DNA from: a virus
Length of the DNA: 50,546 nucleotides
Virus record (IMG/VR): IMGVR_UViG_3300022700_000305
Coordinates: 1-50,546 of that record
Strand: one strand, 5' to 3'
The notes beneath the pieces were generated by a model. The model saw only the letters and a list, made by a program, of their open reading frames with translations, did not search any database and was not told the origin of the DNA. Within the stretch, counting starts at the first letter, position 1, and each line of letters starts with the position of its first letter. Made by a program: the position numbers and the translations under genes. Below are positions 6,020 to 49,855 of this stretch, one piece after another.

Positions 6020-9000
6020 ATGAGTTTAGTTGCGTGGTGGAAGTTAGACGGAGATGGAACCGATTCATCTGGAAATGGATATGATGGAATAGTTCACGGT
6101 TCCCCTAGTTGGTCTGATGGAATAATAGGTACTTGTTATGATAATAGTGCGGATAACTCAAGTACAGGTGTGGAACTCTTACAACACGCAGATGCTCAAA
6201 AATATGATTATCAGCATAGCTGGTCTTTGTGGTTTAAAAGTACAACAAGTAGCGGATCAACAGGTAACAGGATATTGAGCAGAGATTGTTCCGAATACTT
6301 ATGTGCAAACATAGACCAAGATAGTGACCCCAATCATCTTGATTATGTAGATAGTGCATATGATGACATTGAACTTAATCAATGGTATCATTTAGCTATA
6401 ACTACAGATGATGGTGTAAACTATGATTGGTATCTTAACGGCGAACATTGTAGAAGTGGTAGTGAACCGTATGATGAAACTGCACGGCCTTGGGTTATAG
6501 GTGGAAATACAGAAGGTGATGGTGATATATCTGGTAACGAATTTGTTGGTATGATTGATGATGTTAAATTCTTTGACCATAAACTAAGCATTAAAGAAGT
6601 AAAAGAATTAAGCAGAGCCAAAGTAGCACATTGGAAGTTTGATAATTTAAATTTATTAAAAAATGCAGGATTTGAAGGTAACGATTTATGTGTGGGTGAT
6701 CCAGAACATTGGAATTATCCAAAAGATTGTTGGAAAGTTAATGATTTAAGATCTGCACCTGATAGCGATGGAAGCAAATCATTTGGTAACAATTGGGATG
6801 GAACGGCAGTGTGTGATTCAAGTAGTTCATCTGCTGGTGTTTGGCCTAATGCATATGTATATCAAGATGTAAGAGTAGGTAGTGTTGATGAAATAAACGC
6901 ATCTGCATGGATTTATATTCCATCAGGTGGTGGTTATACTGATTGTAGTTCAGGTAACCAATATGTATATGAAGATGATGGTAGATTGCATCTTTATGCC
7001 TATGATTCTAATATGAACCAAATAGGTGAAAAGAAAGGATTGTGGGGTGGTGAACTACAAAAAGGTAGTGGTTGGAGTAGGTTTAATCTTTCATGGGATT
7101 TACCAGATGGTACGGAAACAGTTAGATTTCAGATAGATGGTGGTGACGGTAATAATAGTTGTATAGACCCAGAAACAGGTCACACTGGTAATGCTGGTTT
7201 GTATATTGATGATTGTTCATTAACTCCTGTTAGATATAAAGATTCGTCTGGTTATGGTAATGACGGTACATTTAGTGGTAATGAGCCGATATGGGATGAA
7301 GATAGTGCATTGGGTAATGGATGTTTATATTTTGACGGGGATGATATGATGGTTACTGTTCCCCATTCTGATACTATAGATATAACTGGTGATGAAATAT
7401 CTGTGTCCTACTGGCAAAAATTTAAAGATGCTGGTGACCAAGATCATCCTACAATTACAAAAACTTCCGAAACTGGATGGGCTGTTAGCAACGGATATGC
7501 AATAGGCCAAGGTTGGAGTGATAATCTTTATTCAGGTTTAGCAGGTGGTAGTTTAGGCGGTCAAGATGCGTCTATTAGAGAAGATGGAACTTGGTATCAT
7601 GTAGTTCATACTTATAAAAATGGTGAAGGTATGAAAGTCTATACAAACGGTAATTTAGAGATTTCAGATAACAGCTGGTCTGGTACTATTGGTTCTTCAA
7701 GTCATGATTTATGGATCGGAGATGCTGAAAGAGGAGGTCAGTATTTTGGTAATTTAGACGATATAAGAATTTATGCAACTGCTTTATCGCAATCTGAAGT
7801 ACAAGAATTATATGAACAAAGGGCAAGCATAGATAATGTTGGTAACTTAAATTCACAAATGTTTACAGAATCACAAGATAAATTACTAATTGATGAGGAA
7901 TATTATGAATGTGTTTCAAGGTTAAGAGGTGCTAGCCCGCCAGAAACATTAAATTATTTAGATTGGGTTGAAGATGACGATACGCTAGGAAACATAGCGT
8001 TAGAAGGATTAGTTTATCTTACAACTACTGATATAATTCCAGATAGGGTTGAATTTACAAGGATAAATAATGACGAAGGCTTAACTTTTTATTATACTGA
8101 TTCAGATGTTATAATATATCCTGATGGTAATTGGAGTGTTGGGTGGAATTATGTAATATTACCTACTGTCCATTCATGGGAAAGTCCCAGTTCTACTGAC
8201 TGGTCAAATATGGATAGATTAGAAATATATAAAAATGGCTCTGATGATTCATCTCAAACCATAGGATTTAAGAATTTACATCTCACTAAATATAAAGATA
8301 ATTCAGAACAGTTAGATACACATCTTAAAAAAACAGGTAACTATTATATTAAAAGTTTAAATGAGATAGGTTCATTAGGCGATGATTTGATTGGATATTG
8401 GCCATTAAATGGAAATGCAAATGATTATAGTAAGAATAGTTATGACGGTTCATTAATGAATTCTCCTACACTAACGGATGGTGTTATGAATCAATGTTAT
8501 GAGTTTGATGGTAATAATCAATATATACAGATGCCACAGGATACATATTCAGGCGCATTATCTGATAGTGATGATACTATGAGTATTATGTGTTGGTTAT
8601 ATCCAACAGCCGTACAAAGTGCATCAACAAATCATGCTGTTCAAAATTGTTTTATAGGACATTCGTCGAGTTCTTATAATGATAATTTAGAGTTAGGAGT
8701 TGATTACGATGATTATTCACTACAAGTATATTTAGATACAAACTCGAATGATACGACGGCTACATATACTGATATTACACTTTCATTAAATACTTGGCAT
8801 CATATTGCGTTATCAGTTAACTTAGTTGATGGTAGTGTAAAAAGATATCATAATGGAAACCTTATAGGTAATGACACAACTACTTGGTCTGGTTCAAATA
8901 CATTTGATAATTCTGGTGCTGAATTTACAATAGCTGCATCTAGGTCGTACAGAGAACCTTATACAGGCAAAGTAGATGATGTTAGGCTATATAGTAGAGC

Positions 9001-9121
9001 ATTGTCTGATGATGAGATAAAAACATTATATAATATGACAAATCCAAATGAGAAGGAAAGAGTTAGTATGGATAGTAAAGGAACTGTATATACAAAAGGA
9101 CAATTTAAGGAGACGATATAA
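6020..9121 (+). CDS. Giant LamG / carbohydrate-binding adhesin
   Basis: A 1033-residue protein with three concanavalin A-like (LamG/jelly-roll) domains at roughly residues 1-205, 405-610 and 795-1010. Each has the pattern WKLDGDGTDSSGNGYDG, then a W..W/H.A..xDG core, then DDVRLYSRALSDDEI near its end. Between domains 1 and 2 (about 210-400) is a galactose-binding-like segment (LLKNAGFEGND..HWNYPKDCW) of the carbohydrate-binding type. These folds bind sugars and often occur on virion surfaces. The probable role is binding of a glycan on the host envelope. The gene starts at ATG 6020 and its TAA overlaps the next ATG by one base. There is no signal peptide. Confidence 0.85.
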   Translation: MSLVAWWKLDGDGTDSSGNGYDGIVHGSPSWSDGIIGTCYDNSADNSSTGVELLQHADAQKYDYQHSWSLWFKSTTSSGSTGNRILSRDCSEYLCANIDQDSDPNHLDYVDSAYDDIELNQWYHLAITTDDGVNYDWYLNGEHCRSGSEPYDETARPWVIGGNTEGDGDISGNEFVGMIDDVKFFDHKLSIKEVKELSRAKVAHWKFDNLNLLKNAGFEGNDLCVGDPEHWNYPKDCWKVNDLRSAPDSDGSKSFGNNWDGTAVCDSSSSSAGVWPNAYVYQDVRVGSVDEINASAWIYIPSGGGYTDCSSGNQYVYEDDGRLHLYAYDSNMNQIGEKKGLWGGELQKGSGWSRFNLSWDLPDGTETVRFQIDGGDGNNSCIDPETGHTGNAGLYIDDCSLTPVRYKDSSGYGNDGTFSGNEPIWDEDSALGNGCLYFDGDDMMVTVPHSDTIDITGDEISVSYWQKFKDAGDQDHPTITKTSETGWAVSNGYAIGQGWSDNLYSGLAGGSLGGQDASIREDGTWYHVVHTYKNGEGMKVYTNGNLEISDNSWSGTIGSSSHDLWIGDAERGGQYFGNLDDIRIYATALSQSEVQELYEQRASIDNVGNLNSQMFTESQDKLLIDEEYYECVSRLRGASPPETLNYLDWVEDDDTLGNIALEGLVYLTTTDIIPDRVEFTRINNDEGLTFYYTDSDVIIYPDGNWSVGWNYVILPTVHSWESPSSTDWSNMDRLEIYKNGSDDSSQTIGFKNLHLTKYKDNSEQLDTHLKKTGNYYIKSLNEIGSLGDDLIGYWPLNGNANDYSKNSYDGSLMNSPTLTDGVMNQCYEFDGNNQYIQMPQDTYSGALSDSDDTMSIMCWLYPTAVQSASTNHAVQNCFIGHSSSSYNDNLELGVDYDDYSLQVYLDTNSNDTTATYTDITLSLNTWHHIALSVNLVDGSVKRYHNGNLIGNDTTTWSGSNTFDNSGAEFTIAASRSYREPYTGKVDDVRLYSRALSDDEIKTLYNMTNPNEKERVSMDSKGTVYTKGQFKETI

Positions 9122-10344
9122 TGGCCGAGTTAACAACCACAAGGATTTATGGTGATTTATTCGCACACGGTGATATAGATTTATTAGATGGCAATTTAGA
9201 TGATGTAGCCTCTATAGACGGCGGTGGAGATTCCGTTCAATTTGACGATAATATATATAGCCCAACATCTTTACAAGTGTCAAGTGATAATGTAAGTATT
9301 GATATGGGTGATATAGGAGACCTCAATAATGAAGACGGTGATATTGGATTTGATATGGATAGCGGTGGTGAATTTAATGTAGGTAGAACAGGCGGAAAAA
9401 TATTCACTGTCGGTGTTACTATAAATCATTATACTGATACAGAATTAAACAACAATAATATTAATGATGTAGCATCTATAGATGGCGGCGGAGATGACAT
9501 ATTATTCGGCGATAATATAGATTTAAACTCCAATGATTTAGAAGATGATACAGTTACCATTTGGGATACATCAAACCAGTATATACCACAAGGTAGGTTA
9601 CAGAACGATAGTTTGACTATAAATAGTGGCACACAGCTTACAGGTGGTGGAAGTGTATCACTCGGTGGTTCTATAACATTAAATGTAGATGAAGGTGCTG
9701 GAAGTGGATTGAACGCCGATTTGTTAGATGGAGTACATTTAGCGGACATCACTTGGTCAGATGTAAGTATGTCCACTACAGATGTAAATATGGATGATGT
9801 TAGTCCAGCTAATGTTAATGTTGATTTAAATTCAAATGATTTAGAAGATGCCGGTACTATTATATGGGATACATCTAATCAATATATCCCACAAGGTAGA
9901 TTACAAAATGATAGTGTTACCGTTACTGCTGGCGATGGCTTAAAAAATGGTGGAAGTGCAAGTTTGGGTAGTAGTACAACTTTAGATATTGATGTTTCAG
10001 ATTTTGCAGGTTCGCATCTATCAGATGATGGTAGTGAGAATTTACAAGTTGATGATGATTTTATTTTAAATAGTGGAGACACTATGAATGGTAATTTAAC
10101 TATGTCTGGGAATATAAATGCAGGTTCAGACAGTTCGTATGATATAGGAGCGGATGGAACAAGATTTGCAAATGTATATGCTGATAATATTTATGGTACG
10201 GTTCATTATGCTGATATATCGTTTGAAGAGAAAAAATGTGCAATATGTGATGAACCTTTCGAAGTTGGAGATAGTATAAGTTTGATAGTTACAAATGTAA
10301 AAGAAGATGGTACATATATGGTTCCAAAACACGAGGGTTGCTGA
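9121..10344 (+). CDS. Tail fibre protein with Cys-rich C-terminal tip
   Basis: A 407-residue fibre protein with repeated modules: VASIDGGGDxxxFxDN (twice), WDTSNQYIPQGRLQND (twice) and TGGGSVSLGGSITLNVDEG. Near the end, SYDIGADGTRFANVYADNIYG resembles the segment that in many phages precedes an intramolecular chaperone. Instead of that chaperone, this protein ends in a short domain with EKKCAICDEPFEVGD and a final Cys (PKHEGC), possibly a small metal-binding tip. Start and stop are coupled to both neighbours by one-base overlaps, so it is co-translated with the LamG adhesin and the next repeat protein. Confidence 0.8.
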   Translation: MAELTTTRIYGDLFAHGDIDLLDGNLDDVASIDGGGDSVQFDDNIYSPTSLQVSSDNVSIDMGDIGDLNNEDGDIGFDMDSGGEFNVGRTGGKIFTVGVTINHYTDTELNNNNINDVASIDGGGDDILFGDNIDLNSNDLEDDTVTIWDTSNQYIPQGRLQNDSLTINSGTQLTGGGSVSLGGSITLNVDEGAGSGLNADLLDGVHLADITWSDVSMSTTDVNMDDVSPANVNVDLNSNDLEDAGTIIWDTSNQYIPQGRLQNDSVTVTAGDGLKNGGSASLGSSTTLDIDVSDFAGSHLSDDGSENLQVDDDFILNSGDTMNGNLTMSGNINAGSDSSYDIGADGTRFANVYADNIYGTVHYADISFEEKKCAICDEPFEVGDSISLIVTNVKEDGTYMVPKHEGC

Positions 10345-11543
10345 TGAGTTTTAGTTGGAGTGAAGATGTAAGTAGTGGTGCCTCTATAGACGATGAGGAT
10401 ATGAACGAAGTATACAATAACATACAACATGTTGAGGATGTATTGGATTCTTGGTATCAGTATGTAACATTCAACGGAACTTCAACTTACGGAGCCATAT
10501 CTGGACTTAATTATTCAACTTCTGGTGTAATATCTTCTATGACTGTTACCGCTTGGGTTAGAGTCCCTAGTGATGGTGGCGATTGGTCTATATTAGATTT
10601 TGACAGGAGTGAATATTTTACATGTGCGGCAGGTATTGCAGTCGGTGGTAATAACGGTGAAGGAAATGTAGTTAGTTTTCAAACACATCATACAAGTGCA
10701 GGTACTCATGATATGTGGGGCAATCAAGATATAAGAGATAATAGATGGCATCATATAGCATGGGTATATGATGGAACATATAAAACTATATATGTTGATG
10801 GAGCGGAAGATGAAAAGTTAGATGTTAGCGGCGATGGTAATATAGGAAGTGGAACTACACGTTATGGGTTTATAGGTGATGGTAGTGAAGCCTCATCTTT
10901 TGATGGTAGTAAAAACGACATATACTTTGAAGGTGATATCGCTAGTGTTACTTTTTGGGATAATGTTGCATTAAACCAGACAGAAGTTCAAGATGCTATG
11001 TCAGGCCATTATAAAAGCGGTATTACAGGACAATGGAGATTTAGAGAAGGTAGCGGTAGTACAGTAAGTGATAATTCTGGAAACGGATATGATGTTACTC
11101 TTTATAATTATACTTGGAATGGTTCTGATATATCATTTGGTTGGTCTGAATTTTCAGTTGAAGGTACAGAAGGTACACCTGACTCGATTACGAGTGCTCA
11201 AATGACTGATTTGAGAGACGGTACAGAATATATAGACACAAATATGTTTGCCACATATAATAGTGATAATGATTACAGTGTTGATAGTGGTCATGATACA
11301 ACGGTATATAGTGGTGAAGATTCTACATATAATGATGCTGTACAGACTGGAGATAACACAGACTATAATACTAGTGAAGATGACGGGGCTAATAATACAT
11401 ATGACGGGTCATTATTAAGTGCTGATGATAGTTCTGATTATAGTGAGAATGATACTGGTGATGATGAAACAGTATATACTTCACAGTATAATGATGAGAA
11501 TAGTGGTTATGATGATAGTGTTAGTTTTGATGGAGTGGTATAA
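10344..11543 (+). CDS. LamG-domain tail protein with tetrapeptide-repeat C-terminus
   Basis: A 399-residue protein. ATG 10344 overlaps the previous stop and is preceded by GAGGGT. The N-terminal module SWSEDVSSGASID recurs in the next gene and, more loosely, mid-protein (GWSEFSVEGTEG). Residues about 38-225 form one LamG-like domain (WVRVPSDGGDWSILDF..RWHHIAWVYDG..YVDG). From about residue 306 to the end the chain is a tandem array of four-residue units (DYSV DSGH DTTV YSGE DSTY and so on, about 23 units) rich in Ser, Thr, Asp, Tyr and Gly. It is a virion surface protein by context. The tail is a candidate substrate of the radical SAM enzymes encoded just downstream. Confidence 0.8.
   Translation: MSFSWSEDVSSGASIDDEDMNEVYNNIQHVEDVLDSWYQYVTFNGTSTYGAISGLNYSTSGVISSMTVTAWVRVPSDGGDWSILDFDRSEYFTCAAGIAVGGNNGEGNVVSFQTHHTSAGTHDMWGNQDIRDNRWHHIAWVYDGTYKTIYVDGAEDEKLDVSGDGNIGSGTTRYGFIGDGSEASSFDGSKNDIYFEGDIASVTFWDNVALNQTEVQDAMSGHYKSGITGQWRFREGSGSTVSDNSGNGYDVTLYNYTWNGSDISFGWSEFSVEGTEGTPDSITSAQMTDLRDGTEYIDTNMFATYNSDNDYSVDSGHDTTVYSGEDSTYNDAVQTGDNTDYNTSEDDGANNTYDGSLLSADDSSDYSENDTGDDETVYTSQYNDENSGYDDSVSFDGVV
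11259..11534 (+). repeat. Tetrapeptide-repeat coding array 1
   Basis: About 23 uninterrupted 12-nt units encode four-residue repeats with small residues (S, T, G, D, N) at the second and third positions of each unit. The DNA units are diverged; the periodicity shows at protein level. Confidence 0.7.
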
Positions 11544-12068
11544 ATGAGCATAACTTGGAGCGAAGATGTGAGTGTAGGAGCATCTATTGATAGTACAGAT
11601 ATAGTAGAAATAAGGAATGAAGTGGATAGAGTGGATGATAATAAATGTAATGAACATGATAGTACTTATGATAATGATGTAAATGCTACCGAATATTCAG
11701 GCGAGAATTCTAACGAAAACGCCACTAATTATTCTTCAGACAATAGCGACTATGATTCAGGTGAGAATGTTGGTGAGAATGTTAATGAGAATTTAACCAA
11801 TTTTTCATCTGATAAAGACACTAATGATAGTGGTTATTGTGGAACAAATGTGAGTGGTGACTATAGTAGTAATGATACTGGATATTGTTCTACAAATAAT
11901 ACTACTGTTAACGGTTCACATGATGGCGATGCAGAAAGTTCTTATTATAGTGGAGAAGACAGTACTTATAATAGCGGAGAAGATTCTAGTTATAATAGTA
12001 CTGAGGATAGTGGTTTTAAAGGTACTGATTATTCTGATGTATTAGGTACTGATTGTTTATTATTGTGA
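11544..12068 (+). CDS. Tetrapeptide-repeat protein with SWSED-type head
   Basis: A 174-residue protein. Residues 1-36 repeat the head module of the upstream protein (TWSEDVSVGASIDSTDI). From residue 37 to about 172 it is almost entirely four-residue units (TNYS SDNS DYDS ... SYYS GEDS TYNS GEDS SYNS TEDS), about 34 in register. The pattern is roughly small-x-x-Ser/Thr, with Tyr, Asn, Asp and Glu at the variable positions. Four cysteines are present, two of them in GYC units. Such periodicity suggests a fibrous, stacked beta structure. The radical SAM gene follows 5 nt after the stop. It may be a thin tail fibre or the substrate of peptide modification. No named family is assigned. Confidence 0.75.
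   Translation: MSITWSEDVSVGASIDSTDIVEIRNEVDRVDDNKCNEHDSTYDNDVNATEYSGENSNENATNYSSDNSDYDSGENVGENVNENLTNFSSDKDTNDSGYCGTNVSGDYSSNDTGYCSTNNTTVNGSHDGDAESSYYSGEDSTYNSGEDSSYNSTEDSGFKGTDYSDVLGTDCLLL
11652..12059 (+). repeat. Tetrapeptide-repeat coding array 2
   Basis: About 34 consecutive 12-nt units encode four-residue repeats without a break in phase. Units near the 3' end are the most alike (GEDS, TYNS, GEDS, SYNS, TEDS), suggesting expansion at that end. Confidence 0.75.
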
Positions 12069-12073
12069 TATTT

Positions 12074-13363
12074 ATGAAATTAAATGAAAGAGCAGTTGCG
12101 GTTGAAGTTGTTAGTACGGGATGGTGTCCATTAGATTGTGATTACTGTTACATCCCAAAAACAGACGAAACTAAAAATATGCATGAAAATATAGTTAATA
12201 AACTTAGGAGTGGTGAATGGATTGATAAATTAGATGATAAATTTGAAAATTTACACCATGTAGGCTTTTGGGGAACAGAACCATTACTTATATTAGATAT
12301 AGTTACAAACCAAATAGATGATTTAGTTAATGTTTTCCCAAATATAAAAACCATAGAATTTTCTACATCATTATGTTTAAATCCCTTACCAATAAAAAGG
12401 TTAAAGGATAAGTTAAACGAATATGATATTGATATGAAATGGCAAGTTAGTGCAGATGGACATTATACTGATATAAATAGGATGGATGGTGCAACCCAAA
12501 AGATTAAAGACAATTTAAAAAAGTTGGCAAAAAATATGGATAAATTTACATTGAAGTGGAAACCCACCATATCAATAGATAATATAGAAGATATGGCAAA
12601 CAACCCAGACGAGGTTGAAAAATTTCTTTCATTTTATAAAGATATGAAAGAATATGTATTAGATATAAATGATAATGTTGAAATAGCTGAGGGTTCATAT
12701 GCACCAACATTAGTAGTACCAGGTAAATATACAAGTGATGACGGTAAAATTTTTGCTAAATATATTGAAAATATGAGAAAATATAATTATGATACCGCAT
12801 ATACTAATAGATTAAAAAGAGTAATGAATTATTCTTATGACCTAGATAGAAATCCTTCTATGTTCACGTGCTCGGGCGGAGATTCTAACTTTGGTTTTGA
12901 CGATGGCAATATACATATATGTCATAGAACATTTTATCAAGATAGAAATAAATATATAGAAAGTATAAAACAACAGAAAAGATATGATAATTGGGATGTA
13001 TCATTATTTGAGGATGGTACTATAAATATGATAAAGGATAAGTATATAGTTGGTGATGATGATTTATTACGATTTGAATATGTCATGAGAAGTTATCACG
13101 ATTATTTGGAATTAAAATTAAACCACACCAATGCAATAATAATAGAATTAGCCAAATGCGGTCAAGCAGATGATATTTATATGGATAATCCTGAGTTAAG
13201 AGAAACATTGGCTTTATTTCTACACACATCACATAGTTGTCCAGCTGAGAATTTATTAAATACAGGTGTGGTTCATTTTATGCCAGTAAGTATGATAAGA
13301 TTATGGGCAAATGGAGCATTTCAAGAATTATTAAAAACAGTTGGTGATAATAATGAGTTTTAA
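12074..13363 (+). CDS. Radical SAM enzyme 1 of the tail-linked cassette
   Basis: A 429-residue radical SAM protein. C18, C22 and C25 (WCPLDCDYCY) form the CxxxCxxC site for the [4Fe-4S] cluster that cleaves S-adenosylmethionine. HVGFWGTEPLL matches the GGE-like SAM-binding motif region in diverged form. A later FTCSGGD..FDDGNIHICHR segment resembles the start of a SPASM-type auxiliary cluster region, with further Cys near the C-terminus (KCGQ, SCPAEN). ATG 12074 is chosen; GTG 12065 is the alternative. It follows the tetrapeptide-repeat gene by 5 nt and overlaps the next radical SAM gene by 11 nt. SPASM-type enzymes often modify peptides, so action on the upstream repeat proteins is plausible but unproven. 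Confidence 0.88.
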   Translation: MKLNERAVAVEVVSTGWCPLDCDYCYIPKTDETKNMHENIVNKLRSGEWIDKLDDKFENLHHVGFWGTEPLLILDIVTNQIDDLVNVFPNIKTIEFSTSLCLNPLPIKRLKDKLNEYDIDMKWQVSADGHYTDINRMDGATQKIKDNLKKLAKNMDKFTLKWKPTISIDNIEDMANNPDEVEKFLSFYKDMKEYVLDINDNVEIAEGSYAPTLVVPGKYTSDDGKIFAKYIENMRKYNYDTAYTNRLKRVMNYSYDLDRNPSMFTCSGGDSNFGFDDGNIHICHRTFYQDRNKYIESIKQQKRYDNWDVSLFEDGTINMIKDKYIVGDDDLLRFEYVMRSYHDYLELKLNHTNAIIIELAKCGQADDIYMDNPELRETLALFLHTSHSCPAENLLNTGVVHFMPVSMIRLWANGAFQELLKTVGDNNEF

Positions 13364-14630
13364 GGAAGAAAATAATGAACTTGGGAAAAATTTTATCAAA
13401 AATATGTACTTGGATTATTGGGAATCTGATGAGGATAATGGTAATCATAATAGAATTGAAATACAAACATCATATAAATGCAATTTAAATTGTAAATATT
13501 GTTATGTTGATAGGCATAGGGATAAATTATATAATGAAGTAGATGATGATGATTTATATGACAATGCGGAAATGTTAATAGATTGGTTAATCGAAAATGA
13601 TTACAATCCTTCGATAGACTATTTTGGCGGGGAAGTATTTGTTAATGATATCAATTTTAAAATATTAAATATGATATTAGATAAATTTAAAGATAAGGAT
13701 AGCGTTCCACCCAAAATTGTAATACCAACTAATTTTACATGGATAAAAAGTGAAAATATAACAAAAAAAGTAGATGAATTAATAGAAAAATCAAGGAATA
13801 TAGGTGTTCCTATATATTTATCTGCTTCAATAGATGGGAAATATTGTACTGAGAACAGACCACCAATAAAATTCGATGATGATGATTATCAAAAATTGTT
13901 CAAGTTTTGCAAAAAATGGAAAATAAATTTCCACCCTATGATATATAGTGAAGAAATAGAAAATTGGAAAGATAATTGGTTATGGTTTCAGGATTGGTTA
14001 GAAAAGACTGATAGACCTTTCGATTCTATATATTTGCTTGAAGTTAGAAATAGAGAATGGACAAAAGGACAAATAAACGAGTTTCAAGACTACATCAAAT
14101 GGTTGATTGACTGGACTATCAATAAAGTAGGTAAGGACGAACTGGTAAAGTTTATATTTGATGATGGTTATAATATATTAAGAACACCATTCACAACTAT
14201 AGGAAGAGGTATGGGTTGTTCTATGCAAGCATCTTTATTCGTCAGGTTGTCAGATTTGACATTTAATATATGCCACCGTTTATCGTACGATGAATTTGAA
14301 TTAGGCCATTTTGTTTATGATGATAAGATTGATGATTTAGTTGTAGATAAGCCTGAATTATTGATAGGAACAAAATCATTAGACCAAAAAACATATCCTG
14401 GTTGTGAAGATTGTCCCATAAATTATATGTGTAGTGGTCAATGTTTGGGTGCGATGTATGAATATACTGGGGATATGTATACACCGATACCTAATGTATG
14501 TAGATTAGAATTGGCAAAAATTAAAAGTATTATTGAAAAATTTAAGGATGAAAATATGTTAGATGAAGTAAAAAGATATGTTAACAGTAACATATTAAAA
14601 CAAATAGAGTGGATGGAGGAACAAATATGA
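13353..14630 (+). CDS. Radical SAM/SPASM enzyme 2 of the tail-linked cassette
   Basis: A 425-residue radical SAM protein with C43, C47 and C50 (YKCNLNCKYCY) and a clear GGE motif (YFGGEVF). The C-terminal part has a SPASM-like cysteine set: MGCSMQ, then FNICHRLSYDEFELG, then CEDCPINYMCSGQC and NVCR. These would bind one or two auxiliary iron-sulfur clusters. SPASM proteins include peptide-modifying enzymes (thioether formation, epimerisation, crosslinking) and sulfatase maturases. It shares the ICHR segment with enzyme 1, so the two are probably related partners. ATG 13353 lies inside the previous gene's end with GGTGATA upstream. The chemistry and substrate are not readable from the sequence. 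Confidence 0.9.
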   Translation: MSFKEENNELGKNFIKNMYLDYWESDEDNGNHNRIEIQTSYKCNLNCKYCYVDRHRDKLYNEVDDDDLYDNAEMLIDWLIENDYNPSIDYFGGEVFVNDINFKILNMILDKFKDKDSVPPKIVIPTNFTWIKSENITKKVDELIEKSRNIGVPIYLSASIDGKYCTENRPPIKFDDDDYQKLFKFCKKWKINFHPMIYSEEIENWKDNWLWFQDWLEKTDRPFDSIYLLEVRNREWTKGQINEFQDYIKWLIDWTINKVGKDELVKFIFDDGYNILRTPFTTIGRGMGCSMQASLFVRLSDLTFNICHRLSYDEFELGHFVYDDKIDDLVVDKPELLIGTKSLDQKTYPGCEDCPINYMCSGQCLGAMYEYTGDMYTPIPNVCRLELAKIKSIIEKFKDENMLDEVKRYVNSNILKQIEWMEEQI

Positions 14631-15109
14631 ACTTTGAGGAAAGGAAGAAAGCTATGTTAAAATTACTGAAAAGTCAAAAAGGACTTAATAAATATTGGAA
14701 TGACGGCGATGCTAATAAGATTAGAGATGCAACAAAATATATGATAAATACATTAGAGGATATAAAATGCGGAAAAACAGTAGTAATAGGTTCAAAAAGA
14801 GAAAATCAGATAAAAAATACAACAAATATGGTATTAGATGTTGTACTAAATCTTGGTATAACTGATTATATGAAGGACTTAGCAATATCATATGGTATAA
14901 TATTAAAAAATTGGAATGATAATACATTAAATGATGAAACTTTAAAATATGAAGCTAAATCTATCGTAAGGTTAATAGAGTCCAATTACTCAATAAGAGA
15001 CCTTATCAATATAGTAGATAAATTGAAAAGAAATAACATTGAAAATAGACATGCAAGATTGGCAAGACATTATTTAAAAACATTGGAGGATGATGTAGAT
15101 GACAGTTAA
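14627..15109 (+). CDS. Unknown helical protein of the radical SAM cassette
   Basis: A 160-residue, Lys-, Asn- and Leu-rich protein predicted to be mostly alpha-helical, with no cysteines of catalytic type and no membrane segment. ATG 14627 is set by GGAGGA 5 nt upstream; the start overlaps the radical SAM stop (ATGA) and its end overlaps the next start. Tight coupling suggests it works with the radical SAM enzymes, for example in recognising or delivering the substrate. It does not look like a classical small RRE peptide-binding domain. No family is recognised. Confidence 0.75.
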   Translation: MNFEERKKAMLKLLKSQKGLNKYWNDGDANKIRDATKYMINTLEDIKCGKTVVIGSKRENQIKNTTNMVLDVVLNLGITDYMKDLAISYGIILKNWNDNTLNDETLKYEAKSIVRLIESNYSIRDLINIVDKLKRNNIENRHARLARHYLKTLEDDVDDS

Positions 15110-15341
15110 AGAAATAAATAACAATGTTGAAGATGTAAATATATTATTAACTGAAGTAAAAGATGAAGATACAGGTGAAATAACTAGAAAAAGTCTCGAT
15201 ATAATAATATATGGTATGCGAGATAGAATAGATATGTACGGTTTTTACGGTGACTACACATATACTGATAACAAAATAATAATCAAAAAGCATAGTAGTG
15301 CGGACGGCCATCTTGTAGAAACTATAACATACAATTATTAA
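15099..15341 (+). CDS. Small unknown protein closing the radical SAM operon
   Basis: An 80-residue acidic protein (KEINNNVEDVNILLTEVKDE..) whose C-terminal half is Tyr-rich and beta-like (YGFYGDYTYTDNKIIIKKH). ATG 15099 has GGAGGA upstream and overlaps the end of the previous gene by 11 nt. It is the last gene before a non-coding stretch and a new promoter. It could be an accessory subunit or a small substrate of the cassette. No family is recognised. Confidence 0.7.
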   Translation: MTVKEINNNVEDVNILLTEVKDEDTGEITRKSLDIIIYGMRDRIDMYGFYGDYTYTDNKIIIKKHSSADGHLVETITYNY

Positions 15342-15688: not shown

Positions 15689-16843
15689 ATGAAAATTTTA
15701 TGGTATTCAGTAGCGCCCTTCGTTGCGTCCGGTTATGGAACTCAGACTAAAGGCGTAATTAATGAGCTAACAAAAAGAGATATTGACGTTGATGTAGATT
15801 GTTTTTCGGGTCAACTACATGGAGATACAGAAGAGGAAATAAACGGGCAAACCGTAAAAATGTACGGCGGAAGCGGTGGAATATTCGATAAAGGTCTAAT
15901 AAACAGATCAACTAATTATGATGTTACCGTCACACATATGGATCAATGGATGATACCGGATCAATTAGAGAAGGTTAAAGGTGATATGATTCATTGGTCG
16001 ATAATAGACCAGACACCACCACCAAGATCCTTACAGGCAATAGATGGATTTGAAAACACAAAAGGATTTGTACCTATGACGAATTGGGGTAAAAGCCAAA
16101 TGGAAAAATATTATGATTCGGATAATATGTTTGATCCAATATATCATGGTGTTGATCTAGACATATTTACTCCAGATAAGTCAGGTTTAGACGATAACTA
16201 CCAAAAATTCGTCGATAGTGCCGATTTCTTGGTTGGTATAATCGGTACAAACACATTGAGAGAAATGATACCGAATAATTTAGAAGCATTTTGTAAATTC
16301 GCGGAAAAAATAGACGAAAAAGCTAAAATATATGTTAATAGCCAATTATATAGACAAGACGGGCATCATCTGCCAACTATCGTAGAAAATTTATTAGCAG
16401 ATTATGATGTTACTAACGATCAAATTGTATTTAGAAATCCAGATAAAAACAAATTACCAGTTGACCAACTAGCTGCATTATACGCAAACATGGATGTGCA
16501 TTTAGCAACAACAATGGGAGATAGTTTCGGAATTCCAATTTGTGAAGCGGGTGCCTGCAAAACACCGTCCATAGTTACAAAATTTAGTGCACCTCCAGAG
16601 CTAGTAGATGATGGTAGAGGACTAAAAGTAAAACCACATGCTGATATTTGGATGCAAAGAACGAATAGCAAACAGAAAATCCCAAGTACAGACGATATTG
16701 CTAGAGCATTAGAGATCTATTACGAAGATGAAAAGAAGCGTAAACTTCATGGTCGAAAAATGCGTAAATGGGCAAAAATGAACTGCAATTGGAACACCGT
16801 AGGAGAACAATGGGCCAATCTACTGAGGCGAGAATACGGCTGA
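15689..16843 (+). CDS. Glycosyltransferase, GT4-like (GT-B fold)
   Basis: A 384-residue GT-B glycosyltransferase. The N-terminal acceptor domain starts MKILWYSVAPFVASGYGTQT. The C-terminal donor domain has DVHLATTMGDSFGIPICEAG, which carries the typical E-x7-E-like nucleotide-sugar site, then SAPPELVDDGRG. It has its own strong promoter and lies between the radical SAM cassette and the head genes. It is similar in layout to the glycosyltransferase at 47321-48463. It may glycosylate virion proteins or alter the host surface. Donor and acceptor are unknown. Confidence 0.88.
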   Translation: MKILWYSVAPFVASGYGTQTKGVINELTKRDIDVDVDCFSGQLHGDTEEEINGQTVKMYGGSGGIFDKGLINRSTNYDVTVTHMDQWMIPDQLEKVKGDMIHWSIIDQTPPPRSLQAIDGFENTKGFVPMTNWGKSQMEKYYDSDNMFDPIYHGVDLDIFTPDKSGLDDNYQKFVDSADFLVGIIGTNTLREMIPNNLEAFCKFAEKIDEKAKIYVNSQLYRQDGHHLPTIVENLLADYDVTNDQIVFRNPDKNKLPVDQLAALYANMDVHLATTMGDSFGIPICEAGACKTPSIVTKFSAPPELVDDGRGLKVKPHADIWMQRTNSKQKIPSTDDIARALEIYYEDEKKRKLHGRKMRKWAKMNCNWNTVGEQWANLLRREYG

Positions 16844-38698: not shown

Positions 38699-39337
38699 TT
38701 ATACATTTCGGACGCTACATCTCTTAAAATTATGCTTTATATTTTCTTTTATGCCAATCAATTTATCCGCGTTCATTGATTGTTTATAATCTTTTACTTG
38801 TTGTAAATAATATCTTTTTGCAGGTTTTATTTCATCAACAATATTATATATATCACGTTCCGATAATTCAGCTACGGTAGTTCTGAACTCATAATCAATA
38901 TTCATTGTTTTTATCGTTTCAATACTTTCTCTAATATTATCGATGTTCACGTCTACATTCGTCACGTCACTATATTTCTCAAGTGGTGCCTTTATATCCA
39001 TCGCCACATAATCAATGTCAAGGTTCCGCAGCTTTTTTGGAAAACTACCGTTCGTATCTAATTTGACATCATAACCCATACATTTTACTTCATCAATAAA
39101 TGAAGATAGGTCATGGAGAAGCGGCTCACCACCACTAATCACAACACCGTCTATAAACTTTTTTCTATCATCTAAGTACGATATAATTTCTGAATCGTCA
39201 CTATAACCATCTGCATCTATGATATCAAAGTTGTGGCAATATGGGCATTTGAAGTTACATCCAGCTGTCCAAACTACTGAGCTTATCCGATTCGGGAAGT
39301 CCACATACGACAACTTCTTAAACCCAGCCACCTTCAT
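38699..39337 (-). CDS. nrdG: Anaerobic ribonucleotide reductase activating enzyme
   Basis: A 212-residue radical SAM protein. The cluster motif is CNFKCPYC (CxxxCxxC) in TAGCNFKCPYCHNFDI, followed by VVISGGEPLLHD. It opens the glycyl radical on NrdD. Its start overlaps the nrdD stop by one base, so the two are coupled. The N-terminal VAGFKKLSYVDFPNRISSVV is typical of the archaeal and anaerobic form. QueE-type activity was considered but the nrdD neighbour decides. Confidence 0.93.
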   Translation of the reverse strand: MKVAGFKKLSYVDFPNRISSVVWTAGCNFKCPYCHNFDIIDADGYSDDSEIISYLDDRKKFIDGVVISGGEPLLHDLSSFIDEVKCMGYDVKLDTNGSFPKKLRNLDIDYVAMDIKAPLEKYSDVTNVDVNIDNIRESIETIKTMNIDYEFRTTVAELSERDIYNIVDEIKPAKRYYLQQVKDYKQSMNADKLIGIKENIKHNFKRCSVRNV

Positions 39338-42300
39338 TATGCCACCCTGAATTCCTCACGATCCTTGTATTCCTGAGTCTTTCCTTCATTCCACTGATTG
39401 ACTGGTCTTAAATATCCAACAACCCGTGAATATATTTCACAAGCGCTACCGCAATCAGGGCATTCTTCCTTTTCACCTTCTATATATCCGCATCGGGGAC
39501 ATACGCTAAACGTAGGCGTTAATGTATAGTAGGGTAACTCAAAGTTATTTGCTATCTTTCTGACGAGATCTTTCGTCACTCCGATATCATCTATTTTTTC
39601 GCCTAAGAATCCATGGAGGACTGTTCCACCAGTATATTTGGTTTGTAACGGATCTTGTAACTCGAGTTCTTCGAAAATATCGGATGTGTACCCTACCGGT
39701 AACTGCGACGAGTTAGTATAGTAAGGTTTCGCATCCGGATCCTTTACCTGATTATATATCTTTATATCATCGAACTCTTCATCATCAAGTTTAGCCAATC
39801 TATAACACGTTGATTCAGCAGGCGTAGCCTCTAAGTTGAATATATCGCCCGTTTCTTCTTGGTAATCCGCTAGCTTATCTCTCATATGTACTAATACCTT
39901 TTCCGCAAATTCAATACCTTTATCAGTGCCTATATCAGTACCTTTCAAATTTAACAACATATCATTCATGCCAACTAATCCAATTGTCGAGAAATGATTC
40001 TTCCAATATTCGCCAAACCTATTTTCAATATCCGACAAGTAGAATTTTGAATACGGATGTAATCCTTGGCTTGTTAACCTTTCAATCACTTCTCTCTTCA
40101 CTACAAGGCTTTCCTTCGCAACTTCCATCCTCTCATCTAACATATCGAAAAACTCTTGCTCGTTAGACGCTTTATAGCCGATTCTAGGCAGGTTAATAGT
40201 TACAACACCAATACTACCAGTCTTTGGATTACTTCCGAATAAACCGCCACCACGTTTGCGTAACTCGCGATTATCCAGTCGTAACCGGCAGTTATGCGTT
40301 TTTAACCCATCTGATGTCTCAAAGTATGGTGATCCATCGTTTACTTGTAAACAATATACATAATTTGAATTATAGTTTATCTGTTCAATGTTCGTAATTT
40401 TAACAGCAAATGCATCTGAAACTTTATTATATATTCTACCGTTTTTAGGATCGCATTCATGAATAGTGTATAATGTTGTATCATACATTTTATCGTTTAA
40501 TTTATTATGCATCTCCTTTTCTCTCACATTTATCAACTTGTTTAACATAAACGCAACATTCTTCATTTGGTTTGCCAATTTCTGTGACGTTGTATAAATC
40601 TCTTTATCGGAACCATCACCTATTTTCCAGCCATCCCAGATACCTTCTAACATTTCCTTACCTAATTTTTGCAAATTTTTCAAATATTTGCCATCTTCAT
40701 CGCGTCCGACGAATTTTTGTGTTAATTCACGTATATGCTTTCCGTTAACAAACAGACTTAGAGATTTACCGGTATTTGGCTGTATTTGTAGATGCGAGGC
40801 TAAATTATTCACATATTTCTCTATAAACTCTATAATATCATCTTCATTTTCACCAATACTAAATTGTATTGCTGTATCTCCAAGCACATTTCCTTCGGCT
40901 AAATATAATCCAATGAATTTGCCTGTATCATAATTACCAACTCCATTAAAGCTTGGGAAGTTAGAACTAAATAACAACTTATCATTTTCATTTAGTTCGT
41001 CCGCAAATTTGTCGCCCTTTATGGTTGGGAATATATGATCCTCTGTAACTCTATAATTAAATCCATTTCTAAGTTCGATATCATACACTTCCTTTTTACC
41101 ATCTTTTTTATCCCTAGTTGTCTTTATCGGTTCTGCCGACACCCATTCTCCTTCTTGAGGTGCTTTAATTTCATCAAAAGAACGTTTATAAAGTTTTCTC
41201 AGTGAGATTGTTCTCACATCATCATCTGTTTTTACTGTTACTTCAGTATCGCCTGTAAAACAGCACATACTTCTCGCATCTTCTGGATTCATATCGCTAT
41301 TCACGTAATTCGAGAAGTAAGGTATACCGTACTTAGCCGTCATCTCCCAAACAGGATCTAATGTTTCATTGTCCCAGTCGAAGTCTTCTGTAATATTATA
41401 TGTTGGTATCGGGAATGTAAACGGCCTATTTTTAGCATCTCCTTCAATCATCACTTCTGCAAAAGCCCTATTCAACATATCCATCTCTTCCTGGAAATCG
41501 CTATATGTATCTTCAGTCATTTCGCCGCCAATTATCACGGCTTCATCTTCCATATATGATGGCGGTTCTAGATCCATCGTAATATTAGTAAATGGTGTCT
41601 GAAATCCGACTCTTGTTGGCACATTCATGTTAAAGAGGAACATCTGCATCTGCTGCTTTACTTGCTCATACGTTAAATCATCATGTCTTATGAAAGGTGC
41701 TAACAAAGTATCGAAGTTAGATATTGCTTGGGCTCCTGCGGCTTCACCCTGTAATGTATATAAGTAGTTAACGATTTGCATCAAAGCCACATTAAAATGC
41801 TTTGCGGGCTTGCTTTCTATTTTACCTTCCGCACCCTTAAATCCTTTGGTCAATATCTCTTTTAAGTCCCAACCAACACAATAAGGTCCTAATGTACCTA
41901 AATCATGTATATGTATGTCACCGGATTCATGAGCGTTTCCTATCTTAGGCGAATAAATCTTATTTAGCCAATAATCTGATACAATTGATTCCTTTGCATA
42001 CACATTTAAACCTTGAAGAGAATAACTCATATTGCTATTTTCTTTAACTTTCCAATCGCCCCTATCTAAATATTTATCTATCATTTCTATTCCTTCGAGC
42101 AGACCTCCTACCTTACGAATATCCTCATGCTGCTGTCTATATAAAATATACGCTTTAGCAGTCTTATAATGACCTCTTTCCATTAAGACTTTCTCAACCG
42201 TATCCTGGACATCCGAAACATCTGGTATTTCGCCATAATCTAAATCATTTTCAATCGTCTTTATTACATCACTAGTCATCGTATGTACTTCATCCAAATC

Positions 42301-42408
42301 CTTTTCTCCTACTGCCGAGCAAGCCTCCCAGATCGCATTTGTTATTCTGACAGGATTAAAATCATCGACATTACCATCTCGTTTAATTATCTTTCTAATC
42401 ATCATCAT
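39337..42408 (-). CDS. nrdD: Anaerobic ribonucleoside-triphosphate reductase (class III) with intein
   Basis: A 1023-residue precursor; without the 324-residue intein the enzyme is 699 residues, the normal length. It makes deoxynucleotides under anaerobic conditions by a glycyl radical. Residues about 3-95 are the ATP-cone. The catalytic part includes RSMC at the intein site and NRELRKRGGGLFGSNPKTGS after it. The C-terminus has a zinc site (CPRCGYIEGEKEECPDCGSA) and the glycyl radical loop RVVGYLRPV, with G998 of the precursor as radical site. It starts with MMM; any of the three ATGs is possible. A promoter lies about 100 nt upstream. Confidence 0.95.
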   Translation of the reverse strand: MMMIRKIIKRDGNVDDFNPVRITNAIWEACSAVGEKDLDEVHTMTSDVIKTIENDLDYGEIPDVSDVQDTVEKVLMERGHYKTAKAYILYRQQHEDIRKVGGLLEGIEMIDKYLDRGDWKVKENSNMSYSLQGLNVYAKESIVSDYWLNKIYSPKIGNAHESGDIHIHDLGTLGPYCVGWDLKEILTKGFKGAEGKIESKPAKHFNVALMQIVNYLYTLQGEAAGAQAISNFDTLLAPFIRHDDLTYEQVKQQMQMFLFNMNVPTRVGFQTPFTNITMDLEPPSYMEDEAVIIGGEMTEDTYSDFQEEMDMLNRAFAEVMIEGDAKNRPFTFPIPTYNITEDFDWDNETLDPVWEMTAKYGIPYFSNYVNSDMNPEDARSMCCFTGDTEVTVKTDDDVRTISLRKLYKRSFDEIKAPQEGEWVSAEPIKTTRDKKDGKKEVYDIELRNGFNYRVTEDHIFPTIKGDKFADELNENDKLLFSSNFPSFNGVGNYDTGKFIGLYLAEGNVLGDTAIQFSIGENEDDIIEFIEKYVNNLASHLQIQPNTGKSLSLFVNGKHIRELTQKFVGRDEDGKYLKNLQKLGKEMLEGIWDGWKIGDGSDKEIYTTSQKLANQMKNVAFMLNKLINVREKEMHNKLNDKMYDTTLYTIHECDPKNGRIYNKVSDAFAVKITNIEQINYNSNYVYCLQVNDGSPYFETSDGLKTHNCRLRLDNRELRKRGGGLFGSNPKTGSIGVVTINLPRIGYKASNEQEFFDMLDERMEVAKESLVVKREVIERLTSQGLHPYSKFYLSDIENRFGEYWKNHFSTIGLVGMNDMLLNLKGTDIGTDKGIEFAEKVLVHMRDKLADYQEETGDIFNLEATPAESTCYRLAKLDDEEFDDIKIYNQVKDPDAKPYYTNSSQLPVGYTSDIFEELELQDPLQTKYTGGTVLHGFLGEKIDDIGVTKDLVRKIANNFELPYYTLTPTFSVCPRCGYIEGEKEECPDCGSACEIYSRVVGYLRPVNQWNEGKTQEYKDREEFRVA
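40291..41262 (-). mobile_element. LAGLIDADG intein in NrdD
   Basis: This is a 324-residue in-frame intein, residues 383-706 of the precursor. It starts with C383 (CFTGDTEVTV, block A) and ends with HN706 before C707 of the host protein, so splicing joins SMC to CRLRLDN. NYRVTEDHIFP is the block B-like region with its His. Two LAGLIDADG-type motifs, GKFIGLYLAEGN (about 497-508) and LEGIWDGWKIGDGS (about 587-600), mark a homing endonuclease. The insertion is at a conserved catalytic-core site of NrdD. Splicing residues look intact. Confidence 0.93.
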
Positions 42409-42574: not shown

Positions 42575-43276
42575 ATGCAGAGCCAGTACGACCTAATTCA
42601 TGATACACAATGGGATACACTTGTGATACTTGACGCGTGCCGGTTTGATATTTTTGAGAAACGCGTTCCAAATTATCTTGAAGGAGATTTGATAAAAGTT
42701 AAAAGTGAAGGTAGTAGTACGCCCGAATGGCTCAAGAAAACATGGCCGTGTGAATATAATATCGATTATATTAGCGCAAACCCCGGTATTACTAGTAAAG
42801 GTGCTATTAAATCTTGGTGTGACTATGACGCATCTAAACATTTCAGGAACGTTATCGATGTCTGGGATTGGGGGTGGTGTGATAAATTGGGTACCGTCCA
42901 TCCTGAAGAGGTAACGCTCGGTGCTATGTTTGAAGGCCGTAAAATAGTGCATTATTTACAGCCGCATTTTCCGTTTATTGGAAGACACAAAGTATTAAGG
43001 AATGGCGATTTATCTAAGAGAAGAGGCGGAGGTTATGCTGCTGTTAAAAATCTGCTTGATGAAGGACATAAAGAATACGTAAGGCTAGCATATCAAGATA
43101 ACGTCGATCTTGTTTTAGAATATGTAAAAGAATTATGGCATTATTGCCAAGCAAACGGAGATAATGTTGTTGTTACAGCCGATCATGGCGAGTATTTAGA
43201 TAGGCCAGAAAGACATCCAGGCGGCTGTAACGACCCTGTATTAAGAGAAGTACCTTGGTACATAATTAGGTTTTGA
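42575..43276 (+). CDS. Sulfatase / alkaline phosphatase superfamily protein
   Basis: A 233-residue protein of the alkaline phosphatase-like fold. DTLVILDACRFDIFEKRV supplies the first metal Asp and the nucleophile region; VHYLQPHFPFIG and VVVTADHGEYL supply the further metal ligands (Asp-His). Proteins with LDACRFD occur in archaea beside glycosyltransferases and may transfer or hydrolyse phosphate or sulfate on polysaccharides. It is short for the family, so some loops are reduced. It is transcribed against the glycan cluster and overlaps its end by 11 nt. Confidence 0.8.
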   Translation: MQSQYDLIHDTQWDTLVILDACRFDIFEKRVPNYLEGDLIKVKSEGSSTPEWLKKTWPCEYNIDYISANPGITSKGAIKSWCDYDASKHFRNVIDVWDWGWCDKLGTVHPEEVTLGAMFEGRKIVHYLQPHFPFIGRHKVLRNGDLSKRRGGGYAAVKNLLDEGHKEYVRLAYQDNVDLVLEYVKELWHYCQANGDNVVVTADHGEYLDRPERHPGGCNDPVLREVPWYIIRF

Positions 43277-44282
43277 AATATTTTCTAATATTTCTTATTA
43301 TATATCTTATCTTTTTGTCCGACAAGCATGCATGCATAGGTATATATACACCTTTATTATGCACACTATCACAGTTCGGTAAATCTTTTGAATGCTCTAA
43401 ACATCCTGCTTTAATTGTTGGTATATTTTTGTGTTGTAAATACTCGCAAAAATCATTTCGGCCTTCAACCAATAATTGATATTTTTGGAACGTACATTCA
43501 CCGTCTTGTAATTGTACGGGAAGGTCTTTAAAGGATTCATTATATTTCTTCGCTATATTTTGTCTTTTTTGAATTAATTCGTCTATTTTATTTAACTGTG
43601 ATATACCTAATGCCGCATTCATTGACGACATGGTAAAATTAAAACCAGGAATAGATGATTCTTTTGATTGGAATCTTATTTGTTTCAAATTATCGTATAT
43701 GTGTTTATTATCTGTGACAACTGCACCGCCTTCTCCCGTTGATATTATTTTGTTGAACGCAAAACTAAATATACAAGCATCACCAAATGAACCAGCTGGT
43801 TTACCATCTAATGTACTGCCTAATGATGGTGCACCATCGACTATCAAAGGTATACGTTGGTCTTCCGCAATATCTTCGAGCACGCGAATATCTCTACATG
43901 TATATCCTAACATATGAATTGGTATTATAGCATCATATTTTCTGTTGATATCATCTGCTTTCATACCATATGTGTCAAGCTCTATATCAACATAGTCATA
44001 TGACAAACCAGTGTTTTGAATGCAGTTACGCGTTGCTATATATGTATACGGTGCAGTTACTATCTTACCTTTAATATCAAATGCTATCAATGAAGCGTAT
44101 AATGCAGATGTACCCGAATTAAAAGTGACACAGTACTCCCTGTCACAATAATCTGCAATCATATCCTCGAATTCATTAACTTCGTTGCCTTTTGACCACC
44201 AAGTATCTCTTTCAACAACACTTTTTACAGCTTCTATATCCTTTTCATCAGAATATGTTTTATATAACCATATATCATCCAT
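43266..44282 (-). CDS. DegT/DnrJ-type sugar aminotransferase
   Basis: A 338-residue PLP enzyme. ATG 44282 is chosen for the AGGTG upstream; GTG 44291 is the alternative. FNSGTSALYASLIAFDIKGK binds the cofactor phosphate, VDGAPSLG holds the PLP-contacting Asp, and K178 in FSFAFNKIISTGEGG is the Schiff-base lysine. The family transfers an amino group to a keto-sugar nucleotide. It overlaps the formyltransferase gene by 8 nt, which suggests that the amine it makes is then formylated. It is slightly short for the family (about 370). Confidence 0.9.
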   Translation of the reverse strand: MDDIWLYKTYSDEKDIEAVKSVVERDTWWSKGNEVNEFEDMIADYCDREYCVTFNSGTSALYASLIAFDIKGKIVTAPYTYIATRNCIQNTGLSYDYVDIELDTYGMKADDINRKYDAIIPIHMLGYTCRDIRVLEDIAEDQRIPLIVDGAPSLGSTLDGKPAGSFGDACIFSFAFNKIISTGEGGAVVTDNKHIYDNLKQIRFQSKESSIPGFNFTMSSMNAALGISQLNKIDELIQKRQNIAKKYNESFKDLPVQLQDGECTFQKYQLLVEGRNDFCEYLQHKNIPTIKAGCLEHSKDLPNCDSVHNKGVYIPMHACLSDKKIRYIIRNIRKYFKT

Positions 44283-44754
44283 CAATAACACCTACCGAAA
44301 TATCCACTATCGTTTCTTTGAATAATTGGAATAGATAATAATGACATATGTTTCCGAGTTCATTCGGATGACAAGGAACGGATTCTAATTCGAAATTTTT
44401 CTCCTGAATTATTTCACCATCATCGACACGTTGTACCATTTTGTGTAAAGTTACACCATACTGTCTAACGGAATCATCGATTGCCTTTGCATAAGAACTA
44501 TATCCTTTATATTGTGGTAATGGATGTGGGTGGTAATTGTACCAAGGTCTGTTCTGACCCTGTATCTTCTTTTCTTTATCAAAATCAATAATGAATCCAG
44601 CACAATAGCTAATACCGATATCAAAATCACTATAATAAGCAAAATGTTCGTTTGTTTTCCCTTTTGAGTAAATAACATAATCAATATTAGTCGTATTGAG
44701 GAAATTTACGATTTTTTCAACATGTATCTGTTTACAAAAAATTCCGAGTTTCAT
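44275..44754 (-). CDS. Sugar N-formyltransferase-like protein
   Basis: A 159-residue formyl-transfer domain (Formyl_trans_N type). NYHPHPLPQYKG is the folate-enzyme motif with Asn and His, and VTLHKMVQRVDDGEII holds the catalytic Asp. The protein has no C-terminal tRNA-binding domain, so it is not methionyl-tRNA formyltransferase. With the coupled aminotransferase it could N-formylate an amino sugar using 10-formyl-tetrahydrofolate, or the folate analogue available in the host. It is shorter than sugar formyltransferases of bacteria (about 240), so the N-terminal part is compact. Confidence 0.8.
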   Translation of the reverse strand: MKLGIFCKQIHVEKIVNFLNTTNIDYVIYSKGKTNEHFAYYSDFDIGISYCAGFIIDFDKEKKIQGQNRPWYNYHPHPLPQYKGYSSYAKAIDDSVRQYGVTLHKMVQRVDDGEIIQEKNFELESVPCHPNELGNICHYYLFQLFKETIVDISVGVIDG

Positions 44755-46532: not shown

Positions 46533-46555
46533 GATAGCACCCCATAAAAAGTAAA

Positions 46556-46600: not shown

Positions 46601-46635
46601 CTTGTTGTCTTGGCAATACATATATACACCTACTC

Positions 46636-49854: not shown

Positions 49855-49855
49855 T

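Follow-up and report, generated by a model that had tools for sequence, protein, structure and literature searches.

Within a 50,546-nucleotide stretch of viral DNA (positions 1 to 50,546 of IMG/VR record IMGVR_UViG_3300022700_000305; hereafter the window), we analysed a cassette at 10344-15341 in which two tail-type proteins ending in four-residue (tetrad) repeats, rep1 and rep2, precede two radical S-adenosylmethionine (SAM) enzymes, rSAM-A and rSAM-B (A and B), and two small genes, C and D. A preliminary description of this DNA, made from its letters, had proposed that the virus modifies its own tail repeats. The genes are as follows.

10344-11543, plus strand: rep1, 399 residues; N-terminal anchor motif (W...G..I...NE), LamG/ConA-like domain, tetrad-repeat tail at about residues 304-399
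11544-12068, plus strand: rep2, 174 residues; short anchor (MSITWSEDVSVGASID..EIRNEVDRVDDNKC) followed by a four-residue register that runs unbroken for about 142 residues
12074-13363, plus strand: rSAM-A, 429 residues; radical SAM enzyme with CxxxCxxC, twitch-like
13353-14630, plus strand: rSAM-B, 425 residues; radical SAM/SPASM enzyme with CxxxCxxC and seven SPASM cysteines
14609 (GTG) or 14627 (ATG) to 15109, plus strand: C, about 160 residues; conserved C-terminal [LI]S[RK]HYL motif
15099-15341, plus strand: D, 80 residues; unknown protein

The order first described, two repeat-ending tail-type proteins and then two radical SAM genes, was confirmed at the level of open reading frames (ORFs): 5 nucleotides separate rep2 from A, and A and B overlap by 11 nucleotides. 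The ATG of C at 14627 overlaps the stop codon of B (ATGA) and is the more likely start of C than the GTG at 14609. The two small genes had both been counted in the cassette, but only C (14609-15109) proved to be conserved with the enzymes. It follows them at most family loci, lying directly 3′ of B and, at loci where A and B are apart, also 3′ of A; C is a candidate accessory or recognition subunit. D (15099-15341) had no matches among the related loci that the first scan covered and probably lies outside the conserved cassette.

A and B are members of the radical SAM superfamily, as judged by motif, Pfam and fold matches to solved radical SAM enzymes. The CxxxCxxC reported for both (C18/C22/C25 in A; C43/C47/C50 in B) does not vary across the 33 B and 32 A sequences; the window enzymes scored 29.3 and 24.0 bits against PF04055, just below its cut-off of 29.5, and B exceeded the cut-off of PF13353. 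The SPASM-like cysteines noticed in B were likewise substantiated, since C289, C307, C351, C354, C360, C364 and C383 are invariant in 33 sequences and TIGR04085 scored 29.5 bits against a cut-off of 27. Across the 32 A sequences, the only invariant cysteines beyond CxxxCxxC are C266, C283 and C389, short of the seven of SPASM, and A is twitch-like rather than a full SPASM enzyme.

The AlphaFold models of A and B had predicted local distance difference test scores of 92.6 and 93.5, respectively. The best solved folds for the B model were CteB, anSME, ChlB and SuiB (template modelling scores of about 0.5-0.65), and those for the A model were CteB, anSME, EpeE and TigE; all of these enzymes act on peptides or proteins. 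A phmmer comparison of A with the PDB gave no match. In NCBIfam, the relatives of all A and B members were mostly peptide or protein maturases: the B family matched PapB (33/33), the QhpD maturase (32/33) and the SCIFF maturase (31/33), and the A family matched PapB (32/32) and the cyclophane-forming GrrM family (30/32). Every named enzyme-family score of the window enzymes was far below its cut-off, including that of the anaerobic sulfatase maturase TIGR03942 (32.4 bits for B and 13.3 for A against 349), so that the sulfatase-maturase-like role once offered as an alternative is not borne out, similar as the fold is to anSMEcpe. When a recognition element (RRE) of the ribosomally synthesized and post-translationally modified peptide (RiPP) type was looked for, the barrel was preceded by an N-terminal helix alone in the B model and by nothing in the A model; RRE domains are not present in every RiPP enzyme. 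As judged from sequence and predicted fold, A and B fall among the peptide/protein maturases within the radical SAM superfamily.

The four-residue repeats described in both tail-type proteins exceed chance, by autocorrelation in rep2 and by a register model in both. Autocorrelation of rep2 gave z = 8.4 at lag 8 and z = 2.4 at lag 4; the repeats of rep1 are more degenerate (z of about 3 at lags 8, 12 and 16). A four-state register hidden Markov model (HMM), trained without the window on the repeats of other viruses, placed rep1 at z = 15.9 and rep2 at z = 26 relative to shuffles, with none of 500 shuffles reaching either value, and gave z from -1 to 1.5 for four other window segments. The register runs unbroken over 91 residues in rep1 and 142 in rep2.

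Across the 45 arrays of the family, this register was held over 5,933 residues with 12 shifts, the longest unbroken stretch being 327 residues, and the held-out arrays of loci L185 and L186 also keep it. The tetrad code at positions 0 to 3 is [Y/V/D/H/E/N]-[D/N/Y/C/H/K/L/R]-[S/A/T/G]-[T/G/S], and the unit can be read as big-big-small-small. With the register assigned blind to cysteine, by setting Ser/Thr/Gly against all other residues, position 1 received 65 of the 69 repeat cysteines and 761 Asp/Asn among 1,420, together with 1 Gly, 5 Ala, 0 Ser, 0 Thr, 14 Val, 3 Ile and 1 Pro. The absence of Ser, Thr and Gly is partly by construction, because these residues set the register, whereas neither the location of Cys nor the scarcity of Ala, Val, Ile and Pro depends on it. 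Val (235) and most His (203) fall at position 0, and positions 2 and 3 hold mostly small residues. Cysteine makes up about 7% of position 1 and is absent from some whole arrays, such as that of L015; it often opens the array right after the anchor (VDDNKC, KDNEAC, DDEKC).

The position of this cysteine raises the alternative that A and B act on a short non-repeat part, either the conserved cysteine after the anchor or the anchor itself, with the repeats serving as mere flexible spacers. Such a cysteine is common, and stands at the very start of the register in rep2 and in L185 and L186; some arrays (L015) have no internal cysteine, and L019, L057 and L066 have anchors with weak arrays. Against it, a strict register of up to 327 residues and the position-specific exclusion of whole residue classes indicate constraint along the whole array, and we consider this alternative improbable. 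Such a constraint could come equally from an enzyme that acts again and again along the array or from a regular fibre in which each repeat contributes four residues.

Subsequently, the distribution of the enzymes was established. Single-protein scans of viral sequences with A or B matched only an overlapping contig of the same virus; the family was opened by an alignment search that included A and B, and the true B relatives were then aligned for searching. The family searches were seeded with B alone and were blind to the repeats. In viral contigs they recovered 38 loci of the family (28-47% identical, the window virus itself aside), at least three in 84,980 species genomes, and about 40 distinct loci overall in unrelated uncultured viruses, with B 28-53% identical; several of these loci derive from the same samples. 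One metagenome-assembled genome (MAG) among the species-genome matches, labelled Thermoplasmata, contained two further cassette copies on small contigs. Its three different copies (L102, L185 and L186), all on short contigs, suggest several related viruses binned together and give a possible clue to the host. No carrier beyond the three seed genomes was found among 367 genomes from their groups, and in 50,697 isolated-phage records B was matched only by 24%-identical Campylobacter phage enzymes and A by none. Tblastn searches of phage isolates with rep2 and with A found nothing, and the search with rep1 matched mainly LamG-type proteins. Because it is rare in isolated-phage records and limited to the three seed genomes of the 367, A-B appears from these searches to be mainly a gene pair of uncultured viruses, behaving as a viral rather than a host metabolic gene. 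The carriers are a family of uncultured archaeal and bacterial viruses.

At every locus with DNA available, A adjoins B or lies within a few kilobases of it, although only short fragments of A were seen in some recoded viruses. A and B codiverge, their distances being correlated (r = 0.89 over 31 loci; Mantel 0/2000). Seven loci have an in-frame stop inside B (TGA in L018, L061 and L063; TAG in L021, L066, L067 and L068), and because TAG or TGA is read through there, these viruses probably use recoded genetic codes.

The earlier description had held that radical SAM genes found widely with no repeat protein nearby would speak against modification of the repeats, and had proposed looking for the pair in other viral contigs. 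Among 41 testable loci (the 40 distinct B loci minus L061, plus L185 and L186), 36 instead showed a clear short-period repeat-type protein within 3 kb, usually two per cassette. The repeat period is mostly 4, with period 5 (SNGTC-like) in L069, L070 and L072 and period 3 in L020, L021, L068 and L103. At the same loci, 33 of 247 ORFs within 2.5 kb had period 4, compared with 1 of 364 farther off (Fisher p 6e-13); period-4 ORFs are undercounted here, since any that lay between A and B, or overlapped either gene, was not included. Under the register HMM, 49 ORFs from 28 loci, each located at the cassette, contained runs of at least 40 residues; no such run occurred among 392 control ORFs taken from CP220, four unrelated phages and the upstream 60 kb of the virus itself. 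These two comparisons led us to reject a coincidental neighbourhood. In an inverse test on a small scale, a DNA search with the anchor motif EIRxN[IV]D.[IV].DN hit six places; the five real matches were all in A-B contigs, and the sixth (L178) is an unrelated protein. The repeat gene mostly precedes A but lies between A and B in L015, L050 and L056 and after C in L048, L067 and L019. The linkage is kept despite this changed gene order, which argues for function over inherited order; on the genomic side, its persistence when the genes are rearranged speaks most strongly for what would be a functional tie.

This linkage also bears on the idea that the task of A and B has nothing to do with the repeats, being metabolism or host takeover through small-molecule, sugar or cofactor chemistry, and that they are morons chancing beside fast-evolving repeat tail genes. 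Radical SAM genes whose role is metabolic or unknown do occur in phages: the Campylobacter phages CP220 and CPt10 have 11-12, called highly unusual and tentatively metabolic (PMC2853527), and T4-like marine phages have many (PMC5332604). The window virus itself encodes an anaerobic ribonucleotide reductase with its activase, QueC and sugar genes elsewhere. Nevertheless, the tie to repeats survives gene-order change and great divergence, the nearest families and folds of both enzymes are those of peptide/protein maturases, and the A-B family is almost absent from cellular genomes (among the matches listed and the 367 genomes), so that an unrelated job seems unlikely to us.

The window overlaps a second contig, of 82 kb, at 100%; DNA upstream in the same virus was covered as L006-L009. 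The virus has a contractile tail, with sheath, tape measure, baseplate hub and wedge and major head protein encoded; terminase-like and portal genes were also found. LamG proteins are encoded at 6020-9121 and within rep1 (10344-11543; LamG domain E 3e-16), and a baseplate-like protein at 9121-10344; with these neighbours, the cassette is located in the tail-fibre region. In its upstream part the virus has a gene for a peptide chain release factor of archaeal/eukaryal type, with eRF1 domains 1-3 (L007:7768-8754, minus strand). The window encodes NrdD (anaerobic ribonucleotide reductase) and an adjoining NrdG-like radical SAM activase (38699-42408, minus strand), because of which the host is likely anaerobic. 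Taken together with strongly acidic proteins and a nearest B relative, among the matches listed, in a bin called Thermoplasmata (53% identity), these genes make the window virus look archaeal and anaerobic. Far from the cassette, the same virus carries an extra stand-alone radical SAM gene (L006:11829-12629, minus strand). A QueC homologue of the 7-deazaguanine pathway lies at window positions 49168-49863 (minus strand), possibly for DNA modification.

Sugar genes are also present: a glycosyltransferase downstream of the cassette (15689-16843), and a cluster at 43266-48917 (minus strand) with an aminotransferase, a formyltransferase, a nucleotide-sugar epimerase, a second glycosyltransferase and a methyltransferase. 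The repeats might accordingly be mainly a glycosylation platform, through Asn-X-Ser/Thr and Ser/Thr tetrads served by viral glycosyltransferases, with the radical SAM pair editing the sugar or incidental. In rep2, 12 N-X-S/T sequons occur against 5.8 expected, an excess that arises because the tetrad code produces it. In some arrays of the family, Asp/Val/Ala/Thr or His/Thr/Leu predominate. Because the glycosyltransferase at 15689, unlike A, B and C, had no match among the loci covered by the first scan, glycosylation was rejected as the role of the cassette, and a sugar platform as the main purpose of the repeats appears very improbable.

Systems joining radical SAM enzymes to repeat proteins are already known (Hxs, CXXX, CefB and Tvg), and A and B fall below the tested cut-offs. 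In the TvgA/TvgB system, TvgB acts repeatedly along tandem tetrapeptides, having been shown experimentally to convert Val to cyclopropylglycine in the TVGG repeats of TvgA (PMC9062424). That system is a bacterial RiPP cluster with one radical SAM enzyme, a fixed TVGG, a dioxygenase and transporters, whereas here two enzymes, a degenerate tetrad code and virion-type putative substrates occur in viral genomes. The His-Xaa-Ser system, for which the HxsB/HxsC pair is mentioned (PMC9062424), likewise combines two radical SAM enzymes with a short-repeat protein, but TIGR03978 (HxsB) scored 44.2 bits against 370, the period here is 4 in a viral tail context, and only L020 has an H-S-x array. The CXXX-repeat system (TIGR04115/TIGR04119) and CefB (NF038107; Cys every fifth residue) pair a radical SAM maturase with a period-4 or period-5 target, the latter recalling the period-5 arrays of L069, L070 and L072; A, however, scored 16.7 bits against 350 for TIGR04115, and cysteine is sparse and irregular in our arrays.

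PapB and CteB, ranthipeptide maturases that form Cys-X3-Asp/Glu thioethers (PMC9413430; CteB structures 5wgg and 5why), come nearest in family and fold: PapB is the best-shared family match of all 33 B and 32 A sequences, CteB is the top fold for both, and the i/i+4 spacing resembles the tetrad. The differences are that NF047865 (PapB) scored 62.7 bits for B and 45.1 for A against 340, outside the equivalog, that most arrays here show no regular Cys-X3-Asp/Glu, and that the B model shows no evident N-terminal RRE-like domain. In rep2, the two internal repeat cysteines have V and N at i+4. In thuricin CD, two different radical SAM enzymes, TrnC and TrnD, form one complex and modify two precursors (PMC12093266), much as two enzymes here usually accompany two repeat proteins; the thuricin precursors are bacterial sactipeptide antibiotics, neither repetitive nor viral.

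The order-independent linkage, the codivergence of A and B, the maturase-type class and the strict register with its position code form the basis on which we consider it probable, from sequence and gene neighbourhood, that A and B modify the repeat proteins in a virus-encoded maturation of its own tail repeats. The original proposal is thus well supported by the genomic association at 36 of 41 loci, while the substrate role of the repeats, their place in the virion and the chemical change are inferences. A and B would probably act together, as a complex or in succession, with C as an accessory protein; the tetrad arrays of the two tail-type proteins, as the putative substrate of A and B (and C), would be covalently modified at many points over their length, either ahead of tail assembly or in the course of it, with a stiffened, cross-linked or protected fibre as the outcome. 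Both two-enzyme action on two precursors and a radical SAM enzyme working on tetrapeptide repeats would, by analogy, have precedents in TrnC/TrnD and TvgB.

The restriction at position 1 points to a reaction on a side chain that carries a beta-methylene. As a favoured but weak guess, this would be iterative chemistry at or through the position-1 side chain, for example linking adjacent tetrads by C-C or ether bonds or, in the presence of Cys, by thioethers. As general reactions, the three-residue cyclophane was rejected because no aromatic lies two residues before the restricted position, and thioethers because Cys is too rare. Epimerisation, also set aside, is favoured by the side-chain tolerance but not by the family matches, and leaves the exclusion of Ala at position 1 unexplained. 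Any particular chemistry is doubtful. That every repeat of the tetrad polymer is modified by the two viral radical enzymes, the register being an enzyme-plus-structure code and the product a rigid, cross-linked or non-standard fibre, is a tentative proposal to which we give slightly less than an even chance.

Several observations weigh against maturation of the repeats by A and B. L019, L057 and L066 offer only weak anchored Ser/Thr/Asn-rich proteins, and in L017 and L116 the A-B pair stands with no repeat protein in reach. That rep1 and rep2 are in the virion is suggested only by the domains they carry and the genes around them. Neither a canonical RiPP leader nor a recognition domain was found. 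Furthermore, the residues in the repeats vary widely, with period 3 or 5 in some viruses, and because they vary so much no single known radical SAM reaction fits all arrays.

Further phage radical SAM clusters, distantly related, were observed beside Cys-rich short-period tail-type repeat proteins (CHSNCHSDC, CTCDCNYC, CNCNFCTC, CQSSCESSC), pointing to a broader class with this theme, at the following places.

L022:10502-11113, Cys-rich repeat cluster
L023:12567-13070, Cys-rich repeat cluster
L030:5265-6305, Cys-rich repeat cluster
L031:9143-9691, Cys-rich repeat cluster
L032:4622-5155, Cys-rich repeat cluster
L034:5665-6887, Cys-rich repeat cluster
L036:6096-6497, Cys-rich repeat cluster
L043:11899-14853, Cys-rich repeat cluster

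In Campylobacter Firehammerviruses, CxxC-repeat proteins (L026:15834-17059; L027:15842-16213) lie in the same region as unexplained radical SAM genes. CP220 and CPt10 resemble the present case in having phage radical SAM enzymes, one of them distantly related to B (24%), with CxxC-repeat proteins nearby; they differ in that the enzymes are not orthologous to A or B and that the authors favoured a metabolic role.

A literature search, with preprints and most subscription papers outside it, found no account of viral radical SAM enzymes modifying virion proteins. Radical SAM genes of phages have repeatedly been reported and left unexplained or called metabolic; here, a family of them is tied to putative substrates, and the readable four-residue code makes the substrate question testable. 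Given the other phage clusters beside CxxxC or CDCNYCTC repeats, the theme may be common in viruses of anaerobes. If true, this would be the first known radical-SAM maturation of a virion, a chemistry new to virology, and the family would supply enzymes that modify peptides iteratively and are unusually tolerant of different side chains.

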